Source: Microcaldota archaeon (GTDB lineage Archaea; Micrarchaeota; Micrarchaeia; Micrarchaeales; Micrarchaeaceae). From it: DNA of 8,508 bases. The stretch lies in the NCBI GenBank assembly GCA_021816645.1, contig JAKAXF010000023.1, positions 1 through 8,508 of the forward strand, written 5' to 3'. This document shows positions 1 through 8,438 of the stretch, piece after piece. A program made the position numbers and the translations under genes. The notes under the pieces were generated by a model that was given only the letters and a program-made list of their open reading frames with translations, had not been told where the DNA came from and searched no databases. The first letter of the stretch is position 1; each line of letters begins with the position of its first letter.

Positions 1-2279
1 ATCTTGGACTTGAACTCGTCAAGCTTGTCCGCGTTTAAGAAAGTAAGGTACATGCTTACGTCGGGATACAGCGTTATCTTGCGGAACTTGCTGGAATCTG
101 AGTATATTACTATGTACACCCTGTCGCCGCGTATCGTTGCAACCATGTCGGCGAGGCTGCTCGCGTCAAGGTCCGAGAAGATGAACGTGTTCGAAACGAA
201 GAATGTCCTTAGCTTCTTGAAGGTGGCGAGGTAGTCCGGATCGTGGCCGCTCTGCTCTACCCAGTAGGCCGGCATGTACAGCCCGTCGCGCTCAATCAGC
301 AGCTTGTTGGCCTGAAGCTTGCTGAGTATCATATCTATGTTGTTGTACGTAAGGTTGACCGGTACGTTGCCGAACCTTATGTAGTTCGCTATAGCGCTCC
401 TTATCTCCTTCTTCGACAGCGGCATGAACTTCCAGTGATAGTACAGGTTGAGCTTGTCGAAAGCGCCGAGCAATTCCTTTGACTGCAGCTTTATCTGCGT
501 CTTGGCCTGCGGCGGCAGCATCGGCACGTCTATGTAGAATTCGTCCCTGTTCGGCGCCCTTACGAGCACCAGCATCAGGAAGACGATTATTGCAACTACG
601 GCCAATTCTAGGTACTGCTTATTTATCTTGAGCACCTGCGGCGGATTGTAAAGGGAGTACGTGAAGTTCTCGGAGAACATTCCTATGTAGAAGCTAACAT
701 TGCCGAACAGCTGCGGAGAGCCCCTGGGCAGCGTGTATGTTATCGTGCCGTTCGACACGACTCCGCTCTCGGGGTAGAGCTTGTTCGCGTTTATCGTGTA
801 GTTTATGCCCGATATAGATACTCCTACGTCTGATATGGAGAAGACAAAGGTGCCTGACGAAAAGTTCTTCACTATTGGGTTTATTGTGAGCGGTGGAACG
901 TACACCAGCGCGTCGCCGTACCTTTTATTGGACAGGCCCTGAAGCGAAGCTACGTAGCTTCCAGGTCCGAGCGGTATGCTCATGTACTTTATGAACGTGA
1001 AGTTCCCCGAAGCCGATATGGGAGGTAGCGGCAGGGAGAGCACGCTCTCCCCGTACAGATTGTATATAGTGAGGTGAGGCTCTATCGGTATTGGAGATGA
1101 CGAATTCGTGAATATTTGCATCTGCACGTTGATGTTTGTATTTGGCGTTATAACTCCAGGCAGAGAGAGTGTTCCGTTTATCGCAAACTTGGGCTCAAAA
1201 TTCGAGTAGTAGAAGAATGAGTTAGACGCGTCAGAGAAGCTCGAGTTGGTATACACGGCGATCCTTCCGTAGCTGCTGTCCAGCTGCGAGAGCATCGAGC
1301 CCCCGTAGCTTATCATCGGAGTTTCAAGCAGCAGCCCGCTGCTGCCTGTAGAGAACGAGTATGAGTCCGCTGGTATCGGTATCTTCTCGTAACCGCTCGA
1401 ATAGTACGGAAGCCAGAAGAGCGACGCTATGGCCCTGGATATATCGGAAGCCGAATCCGAGGCGCTGCTCCACGAATTTAGGTAGTTGGAAAAAGCCACT
1501 ATCGAACCGTTGTCTACATTCTCGTACGTGGAATTGTAATACGACTGGCCGTCGACGAATGAGAAAGTAGGAGCGGAGAAGTAAAAGGTGCTATTTGGTA
1601 TAGCGCCCGGATGAATCTTGCTCGAGTATGAGGACGTCTTCAGGAACGTTGGTAGAGAGTAGACGGGAGTAATCACGCTCCCCTGCAGCAACACGTTCGA
1701 AAAGTTCCTGCCTATATACACTATGCTTGTACCCTTCGATAGCAGATAATCCATGACTGTTATGTTTGTGTTGTAGTAGGGCTGGAGGAAGACGCCGGGC
1801 AGCAGGCCGTTCGGTACCACCAGCACAGAATCGTTCTGTATTCTGGTCACGTTCTGCAACGATACGCCGATAAGTGAACTCTGGTTTGCGATTACTCCGT
1901 AGTGATATAGATCTGTAGAGAGATCCGAGGTGAACAGGGCGATGTTACCGCAACCTATGCATTCGTTTGTGGTGTTTAGGATGTATACGTTGGAAGGTAT
2001 CGGGTCCTTGTAGAGTGCCGCGTACACGTAAAGGGACGAGACGTTCCACGAGGAGTAGTCCAGCAACAGGTACGGCACCACGGTGCTGAGGTTGCCGTAG
2101 AAAAGCAGATCCTGCGACGACACGTCAGCACCTAGCGACGGAGGCCCGGTTTTTACTGCGATCGGAGTTGTTGGATGTATGCTCGAAAGCTCAATTTTAA
2201 GATACACCACCATAGCTACAACGAGTAGGACCATGATGACCAGTATTGCTATAATAGTCATTTTGGTTTTTTTCTGCAT
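1..2279 (-). CDS. Large two-helix membrane protein with glycosylated-looking outer region and cytosolic winged-helix-like domain (3' end outside window)
   Basis: I do not recognise a named family. The frame is open from ATG at 2279 to the window edge (759 codons, no stop), so the C terminus is missing. Residues 8-27 form an uncleaved-looking anchor after a Lys-rich start. Residues about 34-553 should be outside the cell: they are rich in Ser, Tyr and Asn, carry about 20 N-X-S/T sequons (for example N63, N79, N192, N257, N426, N538), and contain one C-x-x-C pair (C107, C110). The stretch around 150-195 (VLVVPNGLLPG, then KGTSIVYIGRNF) resembles a Rossmann/GATase-like fold; that is inference. 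A second helix at about 556-573 is followed by RAPNR, consistent with return to the cytoplasm. Residues about 618-672 look like a winged helix (KKEIRSAI, then LSKLQANKLLIERDGLY). The start is favoured by GGAG 11 bases upstream (GGTG is also present, but only 2 bases away). It follows the 45-aa ORF and may share its transcript. It could be a surface sensor or an exposed part of the neighbouring secretion-like machine. Confidence 0.85.
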   Translation of the reverse strand, partial: MQKKTKMTIIAILVIMVLLVVAMVVYLKIELSSIHPTTPIAVKTGPPSLGADVSSQDLLFYGNLSTVVPYLLLDYSSWNVSSLYVYAALYKDPIPSNVYILNTTNECIGCGNIALFTSDLSTDLYHYGVIANQSSLIGVSLQNVTRIQNDSVLVVPNGLLPGVFLQPYYNTNITVMDYLLSKGTSIVYIGRNFSNVLLQGSVITPVYSLPTFLKTSSYSSKIHPGAIPNSTFYFSAPTFSFVDGQSYYNSTYENVDNGSIVAFSNYLNSWSSASDSASDISRAIASLFWLPYYSSGYEKIPIPADSYSFSTGSSGLLLETPMISYGGSMLSQLDSSYGRIAVYTNSSFSDASNSFFYYSNFEPKFAINGTLSLPGVITPNTNINVQMQIFTNSSSPIPIEPHLTIYNLYGESVLSLPLPPISASGNFTFIKYMSIPLGPGSYVASLQGLSNKRYGDALVYVPPLTINPIVKNFSSGTFVFSISDVGVSISGINYTINANKLYPESGVVSNGTITYTLPRGSPQLFGNVSFYIGMFSENFTYSLYNPPQVLKINKQYLELAVVAIIVFLMLVLVRAPNRDEFYIDVPMLPPQAKTQIKLQSKELLGAFDKLNLYYHWKFMPLSKKEIRSAIANYIRFGNVPVNLTYNNIDMILSKLQANKLLIERDGLYMPAYWVEQSGHDPDYLATFKKLRTFFVSNTFIFSDLDASSLADMVATIRGDRVYIVIYSDSSKFRKITLYPDVSMYLTFLNADKLDEFKSK

Positions 2280-2306
2280 CACACCTACCGCTCCGGCTCT
2301 CTAGGC

Positions 2307-2456: not shown

Positions 2457-3194
2457 CTATCCTCTGAGCTCTATGTATCCGAGCGAAACCATCTTGTTGA
2501 GTATCTGCTCTACGCGCGGAGGTATCATCTTGTAGGTTTCCGCAAACTCGTTGACGTCTATCGTGTTGTTGTGCGATTCTATCCACTCCTGCACCATGAC
2601 CATCAGTGACTCGTCGGAATACGTCTCAAGCGATTTGAGCCTGTCCTTCAGCGCCGCGTTCTCCTGGCTCAGCTGCGAAGCCTGAACCGTAAGGTTTTTG
2701 TTCGATGAGGTAAGCTCTATGTTCAGCCTCTTGAGCTCGCGGTATTCGTTGAAGAGAGAATCGTAGTTGTTGAACAGTGTGCTGTAGCTCTGCGACATAG
2801 AGTTAAGCACGTCGTCTATGGCTGAGTCGGAGTACTGGAAAAATTCGGCCAGGTTGGGAGTGTACAGATCTGATATCAGAGAGAGGACGCTGAACACGTT
2901 CTTTATTACAGACAGCCTTCTGAGCTTCTCGCTGGCGTCCATTGGGATTGTATACTCTATATCCATCCTGTCCTTGAAGAGCTTTATTACGAAGAATAGG
3001 AAGGGTCGTTTTTGTATGTCCCTGCTTTCTACTCTTATGAGAGACAGCGAATCCGCATCGCGCTTTACCGAGAACATCTGCAGCGATGAGAGCCTGCTCG
3101 CTATCGCGTCGAAGCTGCCGAGTAGGGTGCCGCCTATGCTTATCGTGCTTACCTTGGGCTCTACTACACCGCTCTCTTCAGCCAAAACAACCAC
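2457..3194 (-). CDS. Coiled-coil protein with C-terminal winged-helix-like domain, 245 aa
   Basis: No named family recognised. Residues 1 to about 88 look like a compact alpha/beta domain (SIGGTLLGSF, then RPFLFFVIKLFKDRMDIEYT). Residues 89-135 are helical, and about 140-192 form a heptad-like coiled coil rich in Leu, Asn, Gln and Glu (LFNEYRELKRLNIEL, then LSQENAALKDRLKSLE). The last 50 residues fit a winged helix (MVQEWIESHNNTIDVNEF, then VEQILNKMVSLGYIEL). There is no signal peptide or membrane helix, so it should be cytosolic. It starts at GTG; an in-frame TAG lies four codons upstream, and a weak GGGAT sits 6 bases before the start, so a longer protein is excluded. A 134-base gap with a possible TATA box precedes it, suggesting its own promoter. 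It may be a transcription regulator, or a dimeric DNA-binding or scaffold part of the adjacent machine. The domain calls are by eye. Confidence 0.85.
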   Translation of the reverse strand: MVVLAEESGVVEPKVSTISIGGTLLGSFDAIASRLSSLQMFSVKRDADSLSLIRVESRDIQKRPFLFFVIKLFKDRMDIEYTIPMDASEKLRRLSVIKNVFSVLSLISDLYTPNLAEFFQYSDSAIDDVLNSMSQSYSTLFNNYDSLFNEYRELKRLNIELTSSNKNLTVQASQLSQENAALKDRLKSLETYSDESLMVMVQEWIESHNNTIDVNEFAETYKMIPPRVEQILNKMVSLGYIELRG

Positions 3195-3328: not shown

Positions 3329-3754
3329 TCAGCGCTTGCCTGCCGCTTTCGCAGCGGTCTTTTGGTTGCCGCTGCCCGCAACCGCCCTGTTAGGGACAAC
3401 AAGTGCGGGCACGTAATTCACAAGCGAGAGCAGGTAGAGGAAAAGAATGATTATGGCGCCGTATAGAAGCGCCGACAGCTTGTCATGAGACAGCACTACG
3501 AATGCCCCGGCAAAGAGGAAGCCCAGTACGAGGTAAACGACCTGACGCCTGACCATCCGCTCTCTGGCCTTCTTGTACTTTGGATAGCACTCCCTGCACA
3601 CCACGAGCTCGTACCCCTTCTCGTTTCTCGTCACATACCTTTTTATGAGTCTTATCCCGTTTATCACGAAGTCTTCCTTTACCGGCAGGCCGTCCTTTGC
3701 CTCGCCGCAGATTATGCACCGCTTGCCGTTGCTCTTTGCGTTTTCTGGGTTCAA
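3329..3754 (-). CDS. Zinc-ribbon membrane protein, 141 aa, TTG start
   Basis: Residues 13-16 (CIIC) and 53-56 (CREC) form two C-x-x-C knuckles about 36 residues apart, the pattern of a zinc ribbon, on the N-terminal side of two membrane helices (about 71-88 and 92-119). The basic stretch KYKKARERMVRR before the first helix places the ribbon in the cytoplasm. The C terminus is a short Ala/Lys/Gly-rich tail (about 120-141). No family name is recognised. The start is TTG, sharing TTGA with the TGA stop of the preceding gene, so translation is probably coupled. GGTG at 3763-3760 lies 5 bases upstream and supports this start; no in-frame ATG exists before the first cysteine pair. It is the last gene of the VirB4 cluster and may link DNA or a protein partner to the membrane complex, which is inference. 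Confidence 0.85.
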   Translation of the reverse strand: MNPENAKSNGKRCIICGEAKDGLPVKEDFVINGIRLIKRYVTRNEKGYELVVCRECYPKYKKARERMVRRQVVYLVLGFLFAGAFVVLSHDKLSALLYGAIIILFLYLLSLVNYVPALVVPNRAVAGSGNQKTAAKAAGKR

Positions 3755-4059
3755 CCAAACACCACGTCCGCCTCGTACACCCTGCCTATTTCAGAAGTTA
3801 TCCTTTTCTCGTCGACCATCCCCATGACCCCGTTTATCATTACGTCGTCCATGCCGAGGCGCCTGAGCACGTTGATTATGTCGTCCCTCTCCAGGCCCGC
3901 TTTCTCGAGGAGCGACACGAACGAAACCACGTTTATGTGCCTGTGCGACTTCTCCATCGCCGCTATGAGCCCTTCTATGTTCTTCTCGCTGACCTTGAGC
4001 GCGAGAAGGACGCGCCTTATCTCGATTCTTGATATCGCGAAGGTGTTTGTGCTAGCCAT
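3751..4059 (-). CDS. Free-standing copy of the motor ATPase C-terminal helical domain, 102 aa
   Basis: Residues 9-80 align without gaps to residues 427-498 of the ATPase encoded just upstream, with about 19 of 72 identical and most other positions conservative. Shared landmarks are E-(I/L)-(R/K)-x-VL, S-x-x-x-I, G-x-x-x-x-DII and LG-x-x-D-x-x-I-x-x-x-MG. The protein is mostly helical, with no membrane segment. The spacing resembles a degenerate EF-hand (helix, loop, helix, then a second helical pair), but the calcium ligands are not kept. I chose ATG at 4059 because GGGTG at 4070-4066 sits 6 bases upstream. A GTG at 4068 would add three residues, but it lies inside that ribosome site. The ATG overlaps the ATPase stop by 8 bases (ATGGCTAG), and the end overlaps the next gene by 4 bases. 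A regulator or assembly partner competing with the ATPase tail is the simplest idea; no function is known. Confidence 0.85.
   Translation of the reverse strand: MASTNTFAISRIEIRRVLLALKVSEKNIEGLIAAMEKSHRHINVVSFVSLLEKAGLERDDIINVLRRLGMDDVMINGVMGMVDEKRITSEIGRVYEADVVFG
3760..3763 (-). promoter_or_regulatory. Ribosome binding site GGTG deciding the TTG start
   Basis: GGTG is complementary to the archaeal 16S 3' end (CACC) and sits 5 bases before the TTG at 3754. It lies inside the end of the preceding gene and is the main support for the unusual start codon. Confidence 0.5.
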
Positions 4060-5560
4060 TCTGCGCACCCATTATCCTGGTTATCAGCTGGTCGGGTATG
4101 CCGAGGTTCTTTAGGAAAGATATTATGTCACCGACCCTTGCGCCGTGAGACTTTAGCGAGTTTATGAAGTCGTTCATCTTGAAAGTCCTGTCCTGCTGGT
4201 CGAAAGTTGTGAAGATCGAGCTGATGTCCTCGTTCGACAGGTTGCAGTCTATCAGCACATTCTTCAGTTCGTCTTTTTCGAACTGGTACTCGCGCTGTAT
4301 GATTCCCGAGGATATCTCGCTCTGAGTCAGCATATCGGCGAGGTCGATGGTGTACACGTACAGAGGTTCCTCGCCCTTGACTTTCTCGAGCAGGAAGGTC
4401 TCTGGAAACCTCAGCGCGGTCTGGAACGCCATGACGACCGCTACCTGTCCCACTCCGAACTTTCCTATCTCGGACCTTATAAAGTCGGAGAAGTTCAGCG
4501 ATCCCTGAAGATAGTTCATGAACTTTTCGAACTTTATCCTTAGCACGAAGTTCGTGCCGACGTTTGAGAATATCGCCTCGTTTATGTCCGTCGGGTTCTG
4601 CGAAGCGACTATGAGTCCGAACCTGTACTTTCTTCCCTCCCTGACTATCGTAACTGCGTCGCTCTTCTCGTCGCTCGCTACCTTCCACGCCTCGTCCAGG
4701 ACCACGAACGTCTTGAGTCCTTTTGTCTCGCTCCACACCTCTGCCCTCATCAGCTCCTTGAGCGTCTGGAGTATGAACAGCGCTGCTAGTGCCCTGAACG
4801 TGTCGTCTGACAGCGCGGACAGATCTATGTCTACGAGCCCCGACTCCACGAGCTTCGAAAGTTCGAGCGTACTCTTCCTTGCGAAGTAGTCCTCACCTTC
4901 CCGGGCGAACTGCCTCAGCCTGTATATCGCGTTCTCGAGCTCGGCAGGGTACTCGTACGTGCCTTCCTGCAGCTTCTCCTCGAGCAGCGAGATCGCGTCC
5001 TTCAGCGTTGGAGCGTCCTTGCCCTCGGGCGCCCTCTCCGACAGCGTGAATCCAGCGTTGACATATGCCTGCTCTATCGCTTCCTCGGTCAGCCTCTTCT
5101 GCTCCGGATATGCGCCTATGTCCGTCAGTATATCCAGAGAGTTTATTATCTGCTTCACCCTGTCCAGAGGCTTCATTCCGGACAGGTCCATTATGTTTAT
5201 GTACGAACCTTTGCCAAGCGAGACTACCGTTCCGCCGCTCTGATTGACCCAAGCTTTGTACTCTCCAGCCCAGTCTATTATGACCGCGTTTGTCCCCCAT
5301 ATGTAGTTTGCCCTAAGTATGAAGGTCTTTACGAAGTAGCTCTTTCCGGCTCCGGTTATACCGACAACGGCTATGTGGGGGTTGGTGATGTTGAGGAACG
5401 ACCACGTGAACGGCACGCGGAATATCTTAGTGTTGCCTATGAATATCGACTTGAACGGGTCGTTGAGCAGCACGCTCGCCGGAGGCTCGGGGGGCCTGGA
5501 TATGAATGACCTCTTCGCTATTTCGTTGCTCATTATATGCTGGAATCTTAGTATAGTCAT
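4052..5560 (-). CDS. VirB4/HerA-type secretion motor ATPase lacking the usual VirB4 N-terminal domain, 502 aa
   Basis: This is a RecA-fold hexameric motor of the VirB4/TraC/HerA-FtsK superfamily, expected on the cytoplasmic face of a membrane channel. Visible motifs are Walker A GITGAGKS (67-74), a following strand NAVIIDWAGEY (91-101), Walker B TFVVLDEAW (284-292, the DEAW form typical of VirB4) and VASQNPTDI (318-326), the sensor-like strand. NPHIAVVG and INIMDL are also typical of VirB4. The usual VirB4 N-terminal domain of roughly 200 residues is absent: only about 60 residues precede Walker A. The two genes upstream appear to supply it. HerA's N-terminal barrel is also not evident, and no NurA gene is nearby. 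Residues about 427-502 form an extra helical domain, repeated in the next gene. ATG at 5560 follows GGATGAT and lies 4 bases after the previous stop. Archaeal relatives would be CedB/TedC-like motors. The ATPase call is firm; the substrate is not. Confidence 0.93.
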   Translation of the reverse strand: MTILRFQHIMSNEIAKRSFISRPPEPPASVLLNDPFKSIFIGNTKIFRVPFTWSFLNITNPHIAVVGITGAGKSYFVKTFILRANYIWGTNAVIIDWAGEYKAWVNQSGGTVVSLGKGSYINIMDLSGMKPLDRVKQIINSLDILTDIGAYPEQKRLTEEAIEQAYVNAGFTLSERAPEGKDAPTLKDAISLLEEKLQEGTYEYPAELENAIYRLRQFAREGEDYFARKSTLELSKLVESGLVDIDLSALSDDTFRALAALFILQTLKELMRAEVWSETKGLKTFVVLDEAWKVASDEKSDAVTIVREGRKYRFGLIVASQNPTDINEAIFSNVGTNFVLRIKFEKFMNYLQGSLNFSDFIRSEIGKFGVGQVAVVMAFQTALRFPETFLLEKVKGEEPLYVYTIDLADMLTQSEISSGIIQREYQFEKDELKNVLIDCNLSNEDISSIFTTFDQQDRTFKMNDFINSLKSHGARVGDIISFLKNLGIPDQLITRIMGAQNG

Positions 5561-5564
5561 ATTA

Positions 5565-6398
5565 TCATCCCTGCTGGCTGAACTGCGCAGCCACGTCGTC
5601 GAATGAGGTGGGCAGCATGAAGCTGTACATGAATAGAGTATACAGTTCCCTGCCCTCTATCCTAGTCAGATCCACGTCCAGAGCGCTAAGCGCGACCTGA
5701 AGCTGTTTCACCTGCGCGTCAAGAGCGTCGAGCGATGCCTTCTCGCTTATCCCCACGGCTGTGGTCTCTATGTACATCAGCGTGGCGACGGGTTTTTCGC
5801 CCTGCGAGATCCTGTCTATCTTCGCCTGTATCATGTTGATGTTGCGCTGTATGTTGGTTATCGTGACGTCGTTTGCGCCCTGGCTCTGCAGCGCTCGCGA
5901 AAGCTGGAACTCCTGGTATCCCCTCTTGCCCTCGAGCTCGTCCCTTACCTTCTGCACGTCCATCCCTGAAGATATAACGTGATACTTGAACGGGAAGTGG
6001 ATGTTCGCTATCGCACGCTCCCATTTCTCCGGAGCCTGGCGCAGCTGATCTTCTACAGACTCCTCAACCCGTTCTTCCTTGAAAGTGTAGGCGAAGAGGT
6101 TCGCAGATATGTAGCCGGTCGAGTAGAATATGCCGTTGACGTTCTTTACAACTGCGTTCTGCTTCTTTACTATGTAGTAGTTGGCGACGGGCTGGAACGA
6201 CACTCCTAGTATCGTTGTGAAAAGCGGAAATACCACGAAATCAGCGAACGTAAAGAGCAAAAGGAATCCGAGAGTCAGAAGGGACAATACCACTACAGTG
6301 GACGACGCTAGACCCTTGCCGAAGCTGCCCGCGCCTTCTATCGCGATCAGCGTTATCAGCGCGGTAAACGCAAGGTACATTATTGTCTCTTCGTCCAT
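5565..6398 (-). CDS. VirB3-VirB4-N-like membrane adaptor, 277 aa (second of a tandem pair)
   Basis: Two membrane helices (about 7-24 and 34-60) are followed by a soluble, presumably cytoplasmic, domain. From about residue 70 the order of elements resembles the N-terminal domain of VirB4 (CagE/TrbE/VirB type): strand region YYIVKKQNAVVKNV; HFPFKYHVISSGMDVQKVRDEL (134-155, like the FPW/F strand plus helix of VirB4); a long helix (about 177-198); strand ATLMYIETTAVG (205-216); a helix; and DVDLTRIEGRELYTLFMYSF (241-260, like the LdteEL segment). The resemblance is by eye. Bacterial VirB3 is a short two-helix protein sometimes fused to VirB4; here it would be fused only to VirB4's N-terminal part. 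Its ATG follows the TAG of its paralogue with no gap, with GGTGA 4 bases upstream, and the motor gene starts 4 bases after its stop. It likely anchors the motor to the membrane channel. Confidence 0.85.
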   Translation of the reverse strand: MDEETIMYLAFTALITLIAIEGAGSFGKGLASSTVVVLSLLTLGFLLLFTFADFVVFPLFTTILGVSFQPVANYYIVKKQNAVVKNVNGIFYSTGYISANLFAYTFKEERVEESVEDQLRQAPEKWERAIANIHFPFKYHVISSGMDVQKVRDELEGKRGYQEFQLSRALQSQGANDVTITNIQRNINMIQAKIDRISQGEKPVATLMYIETTAVGISEKASLDALDAQVKQLQVALSALDVDLTRIEGRELYTLFMYSFMLPTSFDDVAAQFSQQG

Positions 6399-7235
6399 CT
6401 ACTCACCGGTTTGCTCCCCGACTCCCTTGGTGAGACTTTCGCTCACCGTAGAGTAGGGTATCAGGAATTCTGGTTCTACGAACTTCAATAGGTCTTTGCC
6501 TGTTATTATGCTTGGAGTAACTCCGAGTATGGCGCCTATTCCAGACATGAGCTCCGTAGCTTTCTGCTGCGCTATCGATACGGCTTCGTACTCCTTTGTC
6601 CCCGAAGCAGAAACTCCGGCGTAAGTGAGCAGCTCGAGTGACTGCATAGAGGTTATGCTGTCGAGTATGTTTCTCCACATTGAGAGCTCGCCTCTCAGCC
6701 TTTCCACCATCTTCGGATCTGTGCCGTCCTGCGACGCCTTGACCTCTTCGTTCTCCAGTTCGTTGATCTTCTCCCTGAGCTGCATTATGTAGACATCCTT
6801 GTCCATCGTGTAGAGCTGCGTTGTGAACCTGGCGGGATCCTTGCTCAGGCTTACGAGCCTGCTCACCTGCGTTGCAAAATCAATCTTCTCCTCATCGCTC
6901 ATTTCCGTAGCCGATCTGTATAGCGGAACGCTTATGTATATCGTAGCGATGAAGTCTTCGCCGCTCTTGCGGAGTATTGAGTCCTGGGCTGTCGATAGCC
7001 AGTAGGCGTTCTCGTCGCTCAGCACAACCATCTTTGACCTCTGCCTCATCATCGGTATTAGGAAAGGAGTGTAGTATCTTGTCATTATGGCGAGTATGTC
7101 CATGAGCAGAGCGAGCAGCAGCAGCACGAACTTGGCTATCAGCAGAAATGAAGCAGAAGGCAGGGTGATTGACGCGGCTAGGAAGACCACGGACAATACG
7201 AGGAAGCCTATGAATACGAGGTATTTTTTTTCCAT
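6399..7235 (-). CDS. VirB3-VirB4-N-like membrane adaptor, 278 aa (first of a tandem pair)
   Basis: Same layout and length as the gene that follows: two N-terminal helices (about 6-23 and 30-50) and a soluble domain. Matching elements are RFTTQLYTMDKDVYIMQLREKI (136-157) against FPFKYHVISSGMDVQKV; a long charged, coiled-coil-prone helix (about 152-193); strand SLELLTYAGVSAS (199-211); a helix; and LGVTPSIITGKDLLKFV (237-253) against DVDLTRIEGRELYTLFM. Sequence identity is low, so this is an old duplication or two members of one family. ATG at 7235 is favoured over an out-of-frame ATG at 7242 because GGAG at 7249-7246 lies 10 bases upstream. It is the first gene after the promoter region, so it probably begins a five-gene unit running to 3329. 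A hetero-oligomeric membrane platform for the motor is the likely role. Confidence 0.83.
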   Translation of the reverse strand: MEKKYLVFIGFLVLSVVFLAASITLPSASFLLIAKFVLLLLALLMDILAIMTRYYTPFLIPMMRQRSKMVVLSDENAYWLSTAQDSILRKSGEDFIATIYISVPLYRSATEMSDEEKIDFATQVSRLVSLSKDPARFTTQLYTMDKDVYIMQLREKINELENEEVKASQDGTDPKMVERLRGELSMWRNILDSITSMQSLELLTYAGVSASGTKEYEAVSIAQQKATELMSGIGAILGVTPSIITGKDLLKFVEPEFLIPYSTVSESLTKGVGEQTGE

Positions 7236-7276
7236 TCCGCATCGTCTCCGTTAAAGGGTCGCACTACGAACTATTG

Positions 7277-7289
7277 TATTGGACCAATA
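7277..7289. promoter_or_regulatory. Perfect palindrome at the predicted transcription start
   Basis: TATTGG-A-CCAATA is a 6-bp perfect dyad around one central base at 7283. The TATA box at 7305-7314 predicts a transcription start about 25 bases downstream, almost exactly at this centre. Archaeal repressors often act by binding at the start site, so this is a candidate operator for the motor operon. It also overlaps a second TATA-like ATATATT. Confidence 0.45.
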
Positions 7290-7304
7290 TATGAACCTTG
7301 CAAA

Positions 7305-7314
7305 TTATATAAAA
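7305..7314 (-). promoter_or_regulatory. TATA box for the adaptor-motor operon, inside the end of the preceding gene
   Basis: The minus strand reads TTTTATATAA, very close to the archaeal consensus TTTATATA. It overlaps the last codons and the TAA stop (7307-7305) of the VirB6-like gene. The start codon of the next gene is at 7235, leaving a leader of about 45-50 bases. A weaker alternative is TTCATATATT at 7294-7285. Confidence 0.5.
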
Positions 7315-8438
7315 CTTCTTAGTCTGCTTCCTGTATACGTCGCACCGCCTATGAAAGCCGCTACCTGCGTCACGAAAGCATACGTAACGGCCATTATCAG
7401 CGACGGGTAGAACAGTATGAGCAGCCAGAATGAACTCATCTCGCTGTTGACGTTCTGCAGCAGTGCTGGTAGCGGGCTTGTGGCGGTGAGTCCGTTGGTT
7501 TCCGCACCTGTGCCGGCGCCAAAGCGCGTAAGCTGCGATGCCGTCAACTGCATGCTGCTCAGCAGATTAGGTGCTGTGAAGTAGTACGCTACGGCGAAGA
7601 GAGAGGGCATGACTATGAAGAATCCCATGGCAAGCGCTATCAGCATTCCTCCGAACGCCCTCGTTGGGAAGATGGCGCGGAATATCGTGCCGGGGACCAG
7701 GAACGCCGGGATAGATACCGAAGCGAAGAATATAAGCAGGTAGTATTCGGCGTAGAGGGCAGTAATACCGTCGATTATCAGGCCTCCGAGAGCCGAAGCC
7801 GGCTCCAGAACGAAGATGCTGAGCGGAATCGCGAATAGCTGCGGTATCGATGTAAGGATCTGCGATGAAAGGGATTTGAGCGGAGCGCCACCGACCAAAA
7901 GCGTGATGGTTATCGAGGAATACTGCGCGTCCGTAGCGTATATGTTGAACAGCGAGGTGTATATAGCTTCTGCGCTGTTTATCGTCTTGTTTATCAGCCC
8001 CAGCGATGTAGCATAGGGATTTATCGTGCCGACTACGATAGATGGTATGAGCCCGAAGGCGACCGCTGAGACGAAGAGGAAGATGAGTATTATTATCGAG
8101 CTCGCCGTGGCCTCGTAGAGCTCGCCGATACCGAAATTGCGTATCCTGTCGCTCTTTATTCCTGCGCCTACAGCAAATATTACAGACGCTATCGAGAACG
8201 CTATCAGAAGCGCGATCTCCGCGAGCGGGAGGTCGCCCTTCCATATCGATGCGATTTGCGCGTTTATGGCGCAGTACCACGGCGCCTGTGACGTTATGTT
8301 GAGCTGCATACCCAAGGGCAGGCTAGAGCACTGGTTGTTTGGAGACGAGGATTGGCCGCCGCCCGGTTGCGCACTGGCTATCGAAGCAAGCGAGAGCATG
8401 GAAATGAACAACAGTGCGATCAGAACGTTTTTCTTCAT
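7305..8438 (-). CDS. VirB6/CedA-like multi-pass membrane protein with signal peptide, 377 aa
   Basis: Residues 1-23 form a signal peptide (MKK, hydrophobic core, ASA before Q24). A short outer segment follows with two cysteines (C37, C56) and a Gly/Ser/Asn-rich linker. Hydrophobic segments lie at about 72-93, 111-137, 195-222, 229-251, 262-287 and 336-364, with Gly/Ala/Ser-rich helices suited to a channel. A loop at about 290-330 is polar and rich in Thr and Ala. This number and layout of helices, next to a VirB4-like motor, fit the polytopic channel subunit VirB6/TrbL of type IV secretion or archaeal CedA; sequence conservation in that family is too low to prove it by eye. ATG at 8438 has GGTG 7 bases upstream and lies 4 bases after the stop of the preceding partial gene. 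The charged helix-connecting segment KSDRIRNFGIGELYE (95-109) probably faces the cytoplasm and could contact the motor. Confidence 0.82.
   Translation of the reverse strand: MKKNVLIALLFISMLSLASIASAQPGGGQSSSPNNQCSSLPLGMQLNITSQAPWYCAINAQIASIWKGDLPLAEIALLIAFSIASVIFAVGAGIKSDRIRNFGIGELYEATASSIIILIFLFVSAVAFGLIPSIVVGTINPYATSLGLINKTINSAEAIYTSLFNIYATDAQYSSITITLLVGGAPLKSLSSQILTSIPQLFAIPLSIFVLEPASALGGLIIDGITALYAEYYLLIFFASVSIPAFLVPGTIFRAIFPTRAFGGMLIALAMGFFIVMPSLFAVAYYFTAPNLLSSMQLTASQLTRFGAGTGAETNGLTATSPLPALLQNVNSEMSSFWLLILFYPSLIMAVTYAFVTQVAAFIGGATYTGSRLRSFI

Follow-up and report, generated by a model that had tools for sequence, protein, structure and literature searches.

The 8,508-nt stretch of DNA analyzed here (contig JAKAXF010000023.1 of a Microcaldota archaeon assembly, GCA_021816645.1; hereafter the window) contains a single block of eight minus-strand genes, g8 to g1, whose open frames were checked. 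Whatever the direction of transport, this block likely codes for the core components of a type IV secretion system (T4SS)-like translocator located on the chromosome of Micrarchaeota. A reduced T4SS-like machine had been proposed in a first-pass annotation of the window, and this proposal is supported by the gene set, by the predicted fold of g6 and by the conserved motifs of the motor ATPase g5 (Table 1). The minus-strand reading frames and the Walker A and DEAW motifs on which that annotation relied are indeed present.

The genes from g8 to g3 are closely packed, with spacings of +69, 0, +4, −17 and −4 bases for g8-g7, g7-g6, g6-g5, g5-g4 and g4-g3, respectively. A scan of a genome collection gave 102 relatives, of which 80 loci were retained. 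The order g8 g7 g6 g5 g4 g3 g2 g1 on one strand was observed in 62 of these 80 loci, from which same-strand relatives were extracted for g1 (69), g2 (69), g3 (76), g4 (78), g5 (80), g6 (78), g7 (77) and g8 (66). Because of this synteny with g3-g8, we assign g2 and g1 to the same unit, a placement that relies on gene order. At its g8 side the window ends where most relatives carry further VirB6-like genes. The tight block described at first pass holds for the gaps of −17 to +69 bases between g8 and g3 but was drawn too small, as g2 and g1 belong to it too by synteny. One locus (L050:3914-7175) has g1 and g2 inverted and placed upstream of g7-g3. In its best segment the window g5 is 98% identical to the ATPase of the Micrarchaeota genome YF1.bin22 (L001); the relatives are mostly labeled Micrarchaeota or Micrarchaeaceae, the remainder being Marsarchaeota, Mancarchaeum, Micrarchaeum, Fermentimicrarchaeum, 'ainarchaeum' or uncultured archaeon. 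Between the window and L001, the only pair compared (NG86 script), the ratio of nonsynonymous to synonymous substitutions (dN/dS) ranges from 0.017 (g5) to 0.077 (g3) over all eight genes.

Table 1. Genes of the block and motifs of its ATPase, in window coordinates
Feature	Position	Strand	Description
g8	7305..8438	−	377 aa; several long membrane helices after a hydrophobic helix at the N-terminus; VirB6/CedA-like candidate channel
g7	6399..7235	−	278 aa; membrane-anchored paralogue of g6; VirB4-N-like through this kinship
g6	5565..6398	−	277 aa; N-terminal helices 3-26 and 30-50, then a soluble VirB4-N-like domain (predicted fold)
g5	4052..5560	−	502 aa; VirB4/HerA-superfamily ATPase without large N-terminal domain; C-terminal tail domain
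g4	3751..4068	−	105 aa; stand-alone copy of the g5 C-terminal tail domain
g3	3329..3754	−	141 aa; CxxC...CxxC zinc-ribbon-like part, then hydrophobic part
g2	2457..3194	−	245 aa; coiled coil and winged-helix-like C-terminus
g1	3..2282	−	at least 760 aa, leaves the window; anchored at the N-terminus, with a second hydrophobic helix between the large middle part and the C-terminal domain
Walker A of g5	5339..5362	−	GITGAGKS (sequence motif)
Walker B region of g5	4682..4705	−	VVLDEAWK (sequence motif)

In the 81 aligned g5 rows, window included, residues G67, G70, G72, K73 and S74 of the Walker A motif and the sequence LDEAWK are invariant, and the variable Walker A sites are I68 (I in 80 of 81), T69 (T in 79 of 81) and residue 71 (A in 49, S in 32). 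Residues 420-500 of g5 align with residues 5-85 of g4 (hhalign probability 98.3, E 1.2e-14). On plasmids, distant matches of g5 were detected in 6 of the 72,556 PLSDB records. Five of these six sit in blocks with PrgI/VirB3 genes, including the Embleya match, from which PrgI lies two genes off; the Synechocystis one does not. A scan of IMG/VR with exact g5 peptides, which reaches only close relatives, found none. Some ATPase frames found along the way have an unusual layout. A 911-aa minus-strand frame (L119, genome G132) contains a long, intein-like stretch ending in HN immediately ahead of the serine in the Walker A GKS, and a 1067-aa frame (G060:C37:2710-5751) has its matched parts separated by about 515 residues near query residue 285, by the Walker B motif, perhaps also an intein. 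Away from the block, Fermentimicrarchaeum carries on the minus strand a VirB4-like ATPase that includes an N-terminal region of its own (L086, G004:C1:1113689), and A_DKE a 568-aa HerA-like ATPase that matches the CedB profile at 1.2e-20 (L085, G002:C1:91106), in a genome where NurA (PF09376) was not found.

VirB4 looks split in this block into a motor, g5, and two membrane-anchored N-domain proteins, g6 and g7, because the predicted fold of g6 matches the VirB4 N-terminal domain and g7 is a paralogue of g6 (hhalign probability 99.7, E 9.3e-26, 257 columns). The predicted g6 fold resembles the second half of that domain (best Foldseek E 0.013), and R388 VirB4 accounts for all top five Foldseek matches and all top five VIA entries of g6. 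This signal comes from the predicted fold, Pfam, PDB sequences and hhalign to single proteins having given no sequence-level match of g6 to the VirB4 N-terminal domain. g6 and g7 had been annotated as VirB3/VirB4-N-like; the VirB4 part of this description is borne out, whereas their supposedly VirB3-like membrane hairpins align to R388 VirB3 with an hhalign probability under 2%. An hhalign match of g6 with g3, at 41% the best remaining pair among the eight genes and spanning 20 columns of a hydrophobic helix, was not accepted as kinship.

Among natural proteins, VirB6 ranks first in the Foldseek list obtained with the predicted fold of g8, and the match is moderate. No sequence signal for VirB6 or CedA was obtained with Pfam, NCBIfam, PDB sequences or hhalign to single proteins, and the CedA model NF041796 matched 1 of 57 g8 relatives at E 0.15, which leaves them outside the NCBIfam definition of CedA. 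The original assignment of this 377-aa protein as a VirB6/CedA-like channel protein is kept on weaker grounds, namely the moderate fold match and the genomic context. We counted g8-like genes upstream of g7 as stop-to-stop frames with g8 as best profile, within the 10-kb flanks and contig ends. Of the 80 loci, 60 contain 4-6 such frames in tandem, 1 contains three, 5 contain one and 14 contain none, and in most relatives the window-type g8 is the last member of the array. Among the 14, five (L028, L041, L069, L072 and L080) start at most ~0.6 kb from g7 or within the block, L023 has 1.3 kb, and in L040, from ARM-1, the array lies at another place. One member of the Fermentimicrarchaeum array (L077:1438-4146) is a 902-aa VirB6-like protein with a long hydrophilic stretch, in which two similar blocks can be seen by eye. 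Genomes G060, G126, G209 and G104 each have 15-17 g8-profile matches across several contigs, which are matches and not gene counts.

Outside the window, small proteins with two hydrophobic helices adjoin the array or a second, compact locus in relatives. The first-pass annotation, which suggested that the flanks be inspected for pilins, had noticed neither these proteins nor the VirB6-like array, the compact locus and the spread over the phylum. At E ≤ 1, PF18895 (T4SS_pilin) matched 8 and PF04956 (TrbC/VirB2) 7 of the 10 aligned pilin-like proteins, with best E values of 1.1e-5 and 1.8e-5, respectively; the one member displayed in full scores below both curated Pfam cut-offs. The best PDB chain for their profile is R388 TrwL (E 0.086), to which hhalign gave 74.4, compared with at most 0.2 for seven other R388 proteins. 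The profile matches at E ≤ 0.01 in 16 of 16 genomes, and in G002, G016, G053, G019 and G007 the gene lies ~1-3 kb upstream of the main array. Judged by these similarities, the relatives' proteins can be taken as the VirB2-like pilin of a T4SS.

The compact locus, a block of the form pilin-g8'-g6'-ATPase', was found in seven genomes (G001, G002, G003, G007, G016, G019 and G053), in one of which, G019, the g6' frame is interrupted by an inner TGA. Its proteins are related to those of the main locus, with hhalign values of 99.5 for g6' and g6, 99.7 for g8' and g8, and 96.7 (E 4.3e-10) for g2 and the ~215-aa proteins encoded behind the compact-locus ATPase. In all six compact ATPases compared (6/6), no match covers the region that separates the two motor halves. 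One search bearing on this locus gave matches at E ≤ 1e-15 in 52 of 116 cases, of which 44 (E ≤ 2.4e-19) are likely compact-locus ATPases and the other 8, matched via a short stretch, are possibly the main ATPase. In the deep-branching genomes G073, G075 and G167, one g8-like and one g6/g7-like match lie beside the ATPase and a relative of g1 (hhalign probability 98.5 between g1 and the gene at these three loci). The ATPase was detected at E ≤ 1e-20 in 250 of the 295 sampled genomes of the phylum of A_DKE; 246 match at E ≤ 3.4e-52, and the four weaker matches, in G111, G127, G199 and G260 (E 1e-20 to 1e-22), are possibly paralogues. When g8, g6 and a deep-lineage ATPase were used as queries, the protein searches scored 7999, 7997 and 7995 candidates, respectively. 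Among the matches listed, the best 120 of 163, 120 of 194 and 120 of 219, the named organisms are Micrarchaeota, Micrarchaeia, Micrarchaeales, Micrarchaeaceae, Anstonellales, Anstonellaceae, Bilamarchaeaceae, Marsarchaeota bins and a mine-drainage metagenome, with Methanothrix (g6 search) and Baltobacteraceae (g8 search) as single outliers that are presumably misbinned. In ARM-1 (L040, genome G003, assigned by strain name) the unit is dispersed, g5-g1 lying at ~427-432 kb, the g8-like frames at 343-351 kb and g7-g6 at 450-452 kb. That ARM-1 keeps all of these parts at three separate places speaks for their joint use.

The remaining genes of the block are less readily classified. The cysteines of g3 at positions 13, 16, 53 and 56 are kept in 75, 76, 77 and 63 of 77 aligned rows, respectively, and no Pfam or NCBIfam family matched g3 above its cut-off. 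Weak, sub-cut-off Pfam matches link g2 to winged-helix and coil families. The g1 orthologue of A_DKE has two hydrophobic segments, and the large middle part of g1 is probably outside the cell.

We infer from these parts a machine with a ring, docking, a pore, a pilus and a surface contact. In such a machine g5 would be a VirB4-type motor minus its N-terminal domain, which the membrane-anchored paralogues g6 and g7 would dock onto a pore built from the VirB6/CedA-like g8 and its tandem copies. A filament or sleeve would consist of the VirB2-like pilin whose gene lies upstream in relatives; g4, as a copy of the motor tail domain, may share the docking site of the motor, and g1 would be a surface-exposed contact protein.

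Our confidence in a T4SS-like core is slightly reduced by seven loci that have no adjoining g8-like gene and by an ATPase tree that does not place g5 inside VirB4. These loci (L018, L024, L025, L037, L050, L067 and L073) keep g7-g3 and have no g8-like gene within 3.8-8.3 kb upstream, the rest of those genomes not having been searched. In the tree, which comprises 37 rows with many long branches and does not include CedB and CedD, window-type ATPases group with the deep-lineage ones (100/99), and this group is excluded, as are two HerA-like rows, from the branch joining VirB4, plasmid ATPases and one pKEF9 row at 89/98. HerA proteins also top the PDB sequence matches of g5, a VirB4 coming third. 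All of these observations count against our interpretation, and those on g5 would suit a HerA-like repair or defense helicase with unrelated membrane neighbors. The same can be said of the profile scores: DUF87 is the best Pfam match of g5 (1.5e-15, followed by AAA_10 at 1e-12 and the TraG P-loop at 3.6e-9), and the best NCBIfam models, CedD (3e-20, 72 bits) and CedB (1e-17, 64 bits), fall below their cut-offs of 600 and 700 bits and lead the VirB4 (60 and 57 bits) and HerA (54 bits) models only slightly. Because profile scores, PDB matches and tree fail to separate them, the g5 sequence alone does not decide between VirB4 and HerA, and context carries most of the case. This context renders a helicase very unlikely, as g5 is steadily linked to VirB4-N-like genes, and in the compact locus also to a pilin. 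HerA-NurA repair, the contrary reading raised by the first-pass annotation, is disfavored by the plasmid relatives beside PrgI/VirB3 genes and by the scarcity of NurA (PF09376), which was found in 2 of 9 genomes and adjacent to g5 in neither; the tree nonetheless leaves g5 outside VirB4. Least probable of all is that the block is a chance-preserved remnant of a conjugative element. The core parts are those of conjugation, and Fermentimicrarchaeum has the further VirB4 with its own N-terminal region mentioned above. However, the dN/dS values from the single comparison are low in all eight genes, the ATPase is present in most of the sampled genomes of the phylum, g5 has no close relative in IMG/VR and only distant ones in PLSDB, and PF03432, the one relaxase family searched, had no match in any of 16 genomes (it was detected in 1 of 14 controls).

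As for its work, we think that the translocator most likely serves, where a micrarchaeal cell touches a host or neighbor, to carry nucleic acid or other macromolecules through the envelope. DNA import is our first-ranked guess, at somewhat under an even chance. VirD4 (PF02534, the one coupling-protein family searched genome-wide) had, like PF03432, no match in any of 16 genomes (it was detected in 5 of 14 controls), which argues against self-transfer and agrees with the earlier remark that the window has no relaxase or coupling ATPase. VirB11, also listed as missing from the window in that remark, is lacking in some T4SS as well. Import ranks first because of these two absences, because ARM-1 (PMC11329633) and Mia14 (PMC5498576) are reported to be without nucleotide synthesis, and because import of DNA or other macromolecules has been suggested for the T4SS of Patescibacteria (PMC12102498). 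The accessible text on Mia14 does not contain the term 'VirB'. An export machine, in which these parts would instead deliver proteins or DNA to the host, is unlikely by comparison. It would be consistent with the host dependence of ARM-1 (PMC11329633), with the long hydrophilic stretch of the 902-aa VirB6-like protein in L077 and with the suggestion that giant nanohaloarchaeal proteins carrying a VirB4-like domain act in secretion (PMC10266531), but most exporting T4SS use VirD4, although exceptions exist (PMC12102498), and no effector genes were seen, none having been specifically looked for. Still more doubtful is a pilus or adhesion machine in which pilin, membrane proteins and motor just assemble and retract a filament for holding on to the host. 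The pilin is present in 16 of 16 genomes and thin filaments of ARM-1 are possible pili according to the authors (PMC11329633); on the other hand, several tandem VirB6-like genes would exceed the expected need of a plain filament, and two type IV pili systems have already been reported for the related Mia14 (PMC5498576).

The ARM-1 genome carries the system described here, which may bear on how DPANN archaea exchange material with their hosts. The host of ARM-1 is reported to make nanotubes with a 4.4-nm lumen that end on a 21-nm barrel of unknown make-up, although the authors consider preparation artifacts possible (PMC11329633). A far-reaching and, as a whole, improbable extension of our preferred reading would be a phylum-defining host-interface organelle, a T4SS whose three-part VirB4 motor (one ATPase and two N-domain adaptors) sits on a mixed ring of VirB6 paralogues and acts as the symbiont-side port, perhaps the 21-nm barrel of ARM-1, drawing in host DNA as nucleotides for cells unable to make them. 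A conserved machine with named parts in any case gives genes to seek in proteomes and tomograms, and it would be an archaeal parallel to the T4SS of Patescibacteria as well as a case in which nature has taken VirB4 apart into motor and adaptors.

In the full-text literature on Micrarchaeota and DPANN covered, from which preprints and most subscription papers are absent, no description of this locus was found; the accessible portions of the Ced/Ted papers PMC9905601 and PMC11868833 do not mention Micrarch or DPANN, and the report on the A_DKE culture (PMC8975820) does not mention secretion, pili or DNA uptake. Among bacterial systems, the T4SS of Patescibacteria is similar in being phylum-wide in ultra-small cells, mostly without relaxase and with VirB4-, VirB6- and VirB2-like parts, the micrarchaeal counterparts of the first two being putative (PMC12102498). 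It differs, according to the available description, in that it falls within the monoderm conjugation systems and has homologues of PrgI/VirB3 and of the coupling protein TrsD. R388 (TrwK/VirB4, TrwI/VirB6, TrwL/VirB2) resembles the micrarchaeal system in the fold of g6, less surely in that of g8, and weakly in the pilin, but its VirB4 is in one piece and it has a relaxase and a coupling protein, for which PF03432 and PF02534 gave 0/16 here. The best plasmid relatives of g5 lie in Bacillales blocks of the form PrgI - ~320-aa protein - DUF87 ATPase, where the N-terminal domain of VirB4 is perhaps also split: as a hint, the ~320-aa protein reaches 49.5% with a merged g6, g7 and compact-locus profile and only 1.6-6.1% with single profiles. 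Unlike g5, the Bacillales ATPase retains its own N-terminal region. On three Bacillales plasmids typed as non-mobilizable (L173, L174 and L177), the block continues with a ~900-1030-aa protein and an M23 peptidase and has the look of a split-VirB4 T4SS.

The Ced system of Sulfolobales (CedA, CedA1, CedB and CedD) is described as having a VirB6-like channel, a VirB2-like pilin and VirB4-like motors, the N-domains of which each correspond to another portion of the VirB4 N-domain (PMC11868833, PMC9905601). The micrarchaeal system has a VirB2-like pilin as well, and putative counterparts of the channel and of motors with divided N-domain coverage. In Ced, however, the N-domains are fused to ATPase domains, whereas the micrarchaeal block encodes two free N-domain-like proteins and an ATPase alone, and the tandem VirB6-like arrays, g1-g4 and the compact second locus do not appear in the available descriptions of Ced. 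No protein above the NCBIfam cut-off for CedB was found in 4 genomes, and g5 and the g8 relatives fall outside CedD and CedA, respectively, as defined by NCBIfam, in line with the first-pass view that the gene set differs from Ced. In the Ted system of Thermoproteales (TedA, TedB and TedC), a pilin gene stands beside the channel gene with an ATPase near, as in the compact locus (PMC9905601), from which the available description of Ted is set apart by the separate VirB4-N-like gene located between channel and ATPase. We class the micrarchaeal block as a new form of T4SS/Ced/Ted-like machine, and not as a member of Ced.

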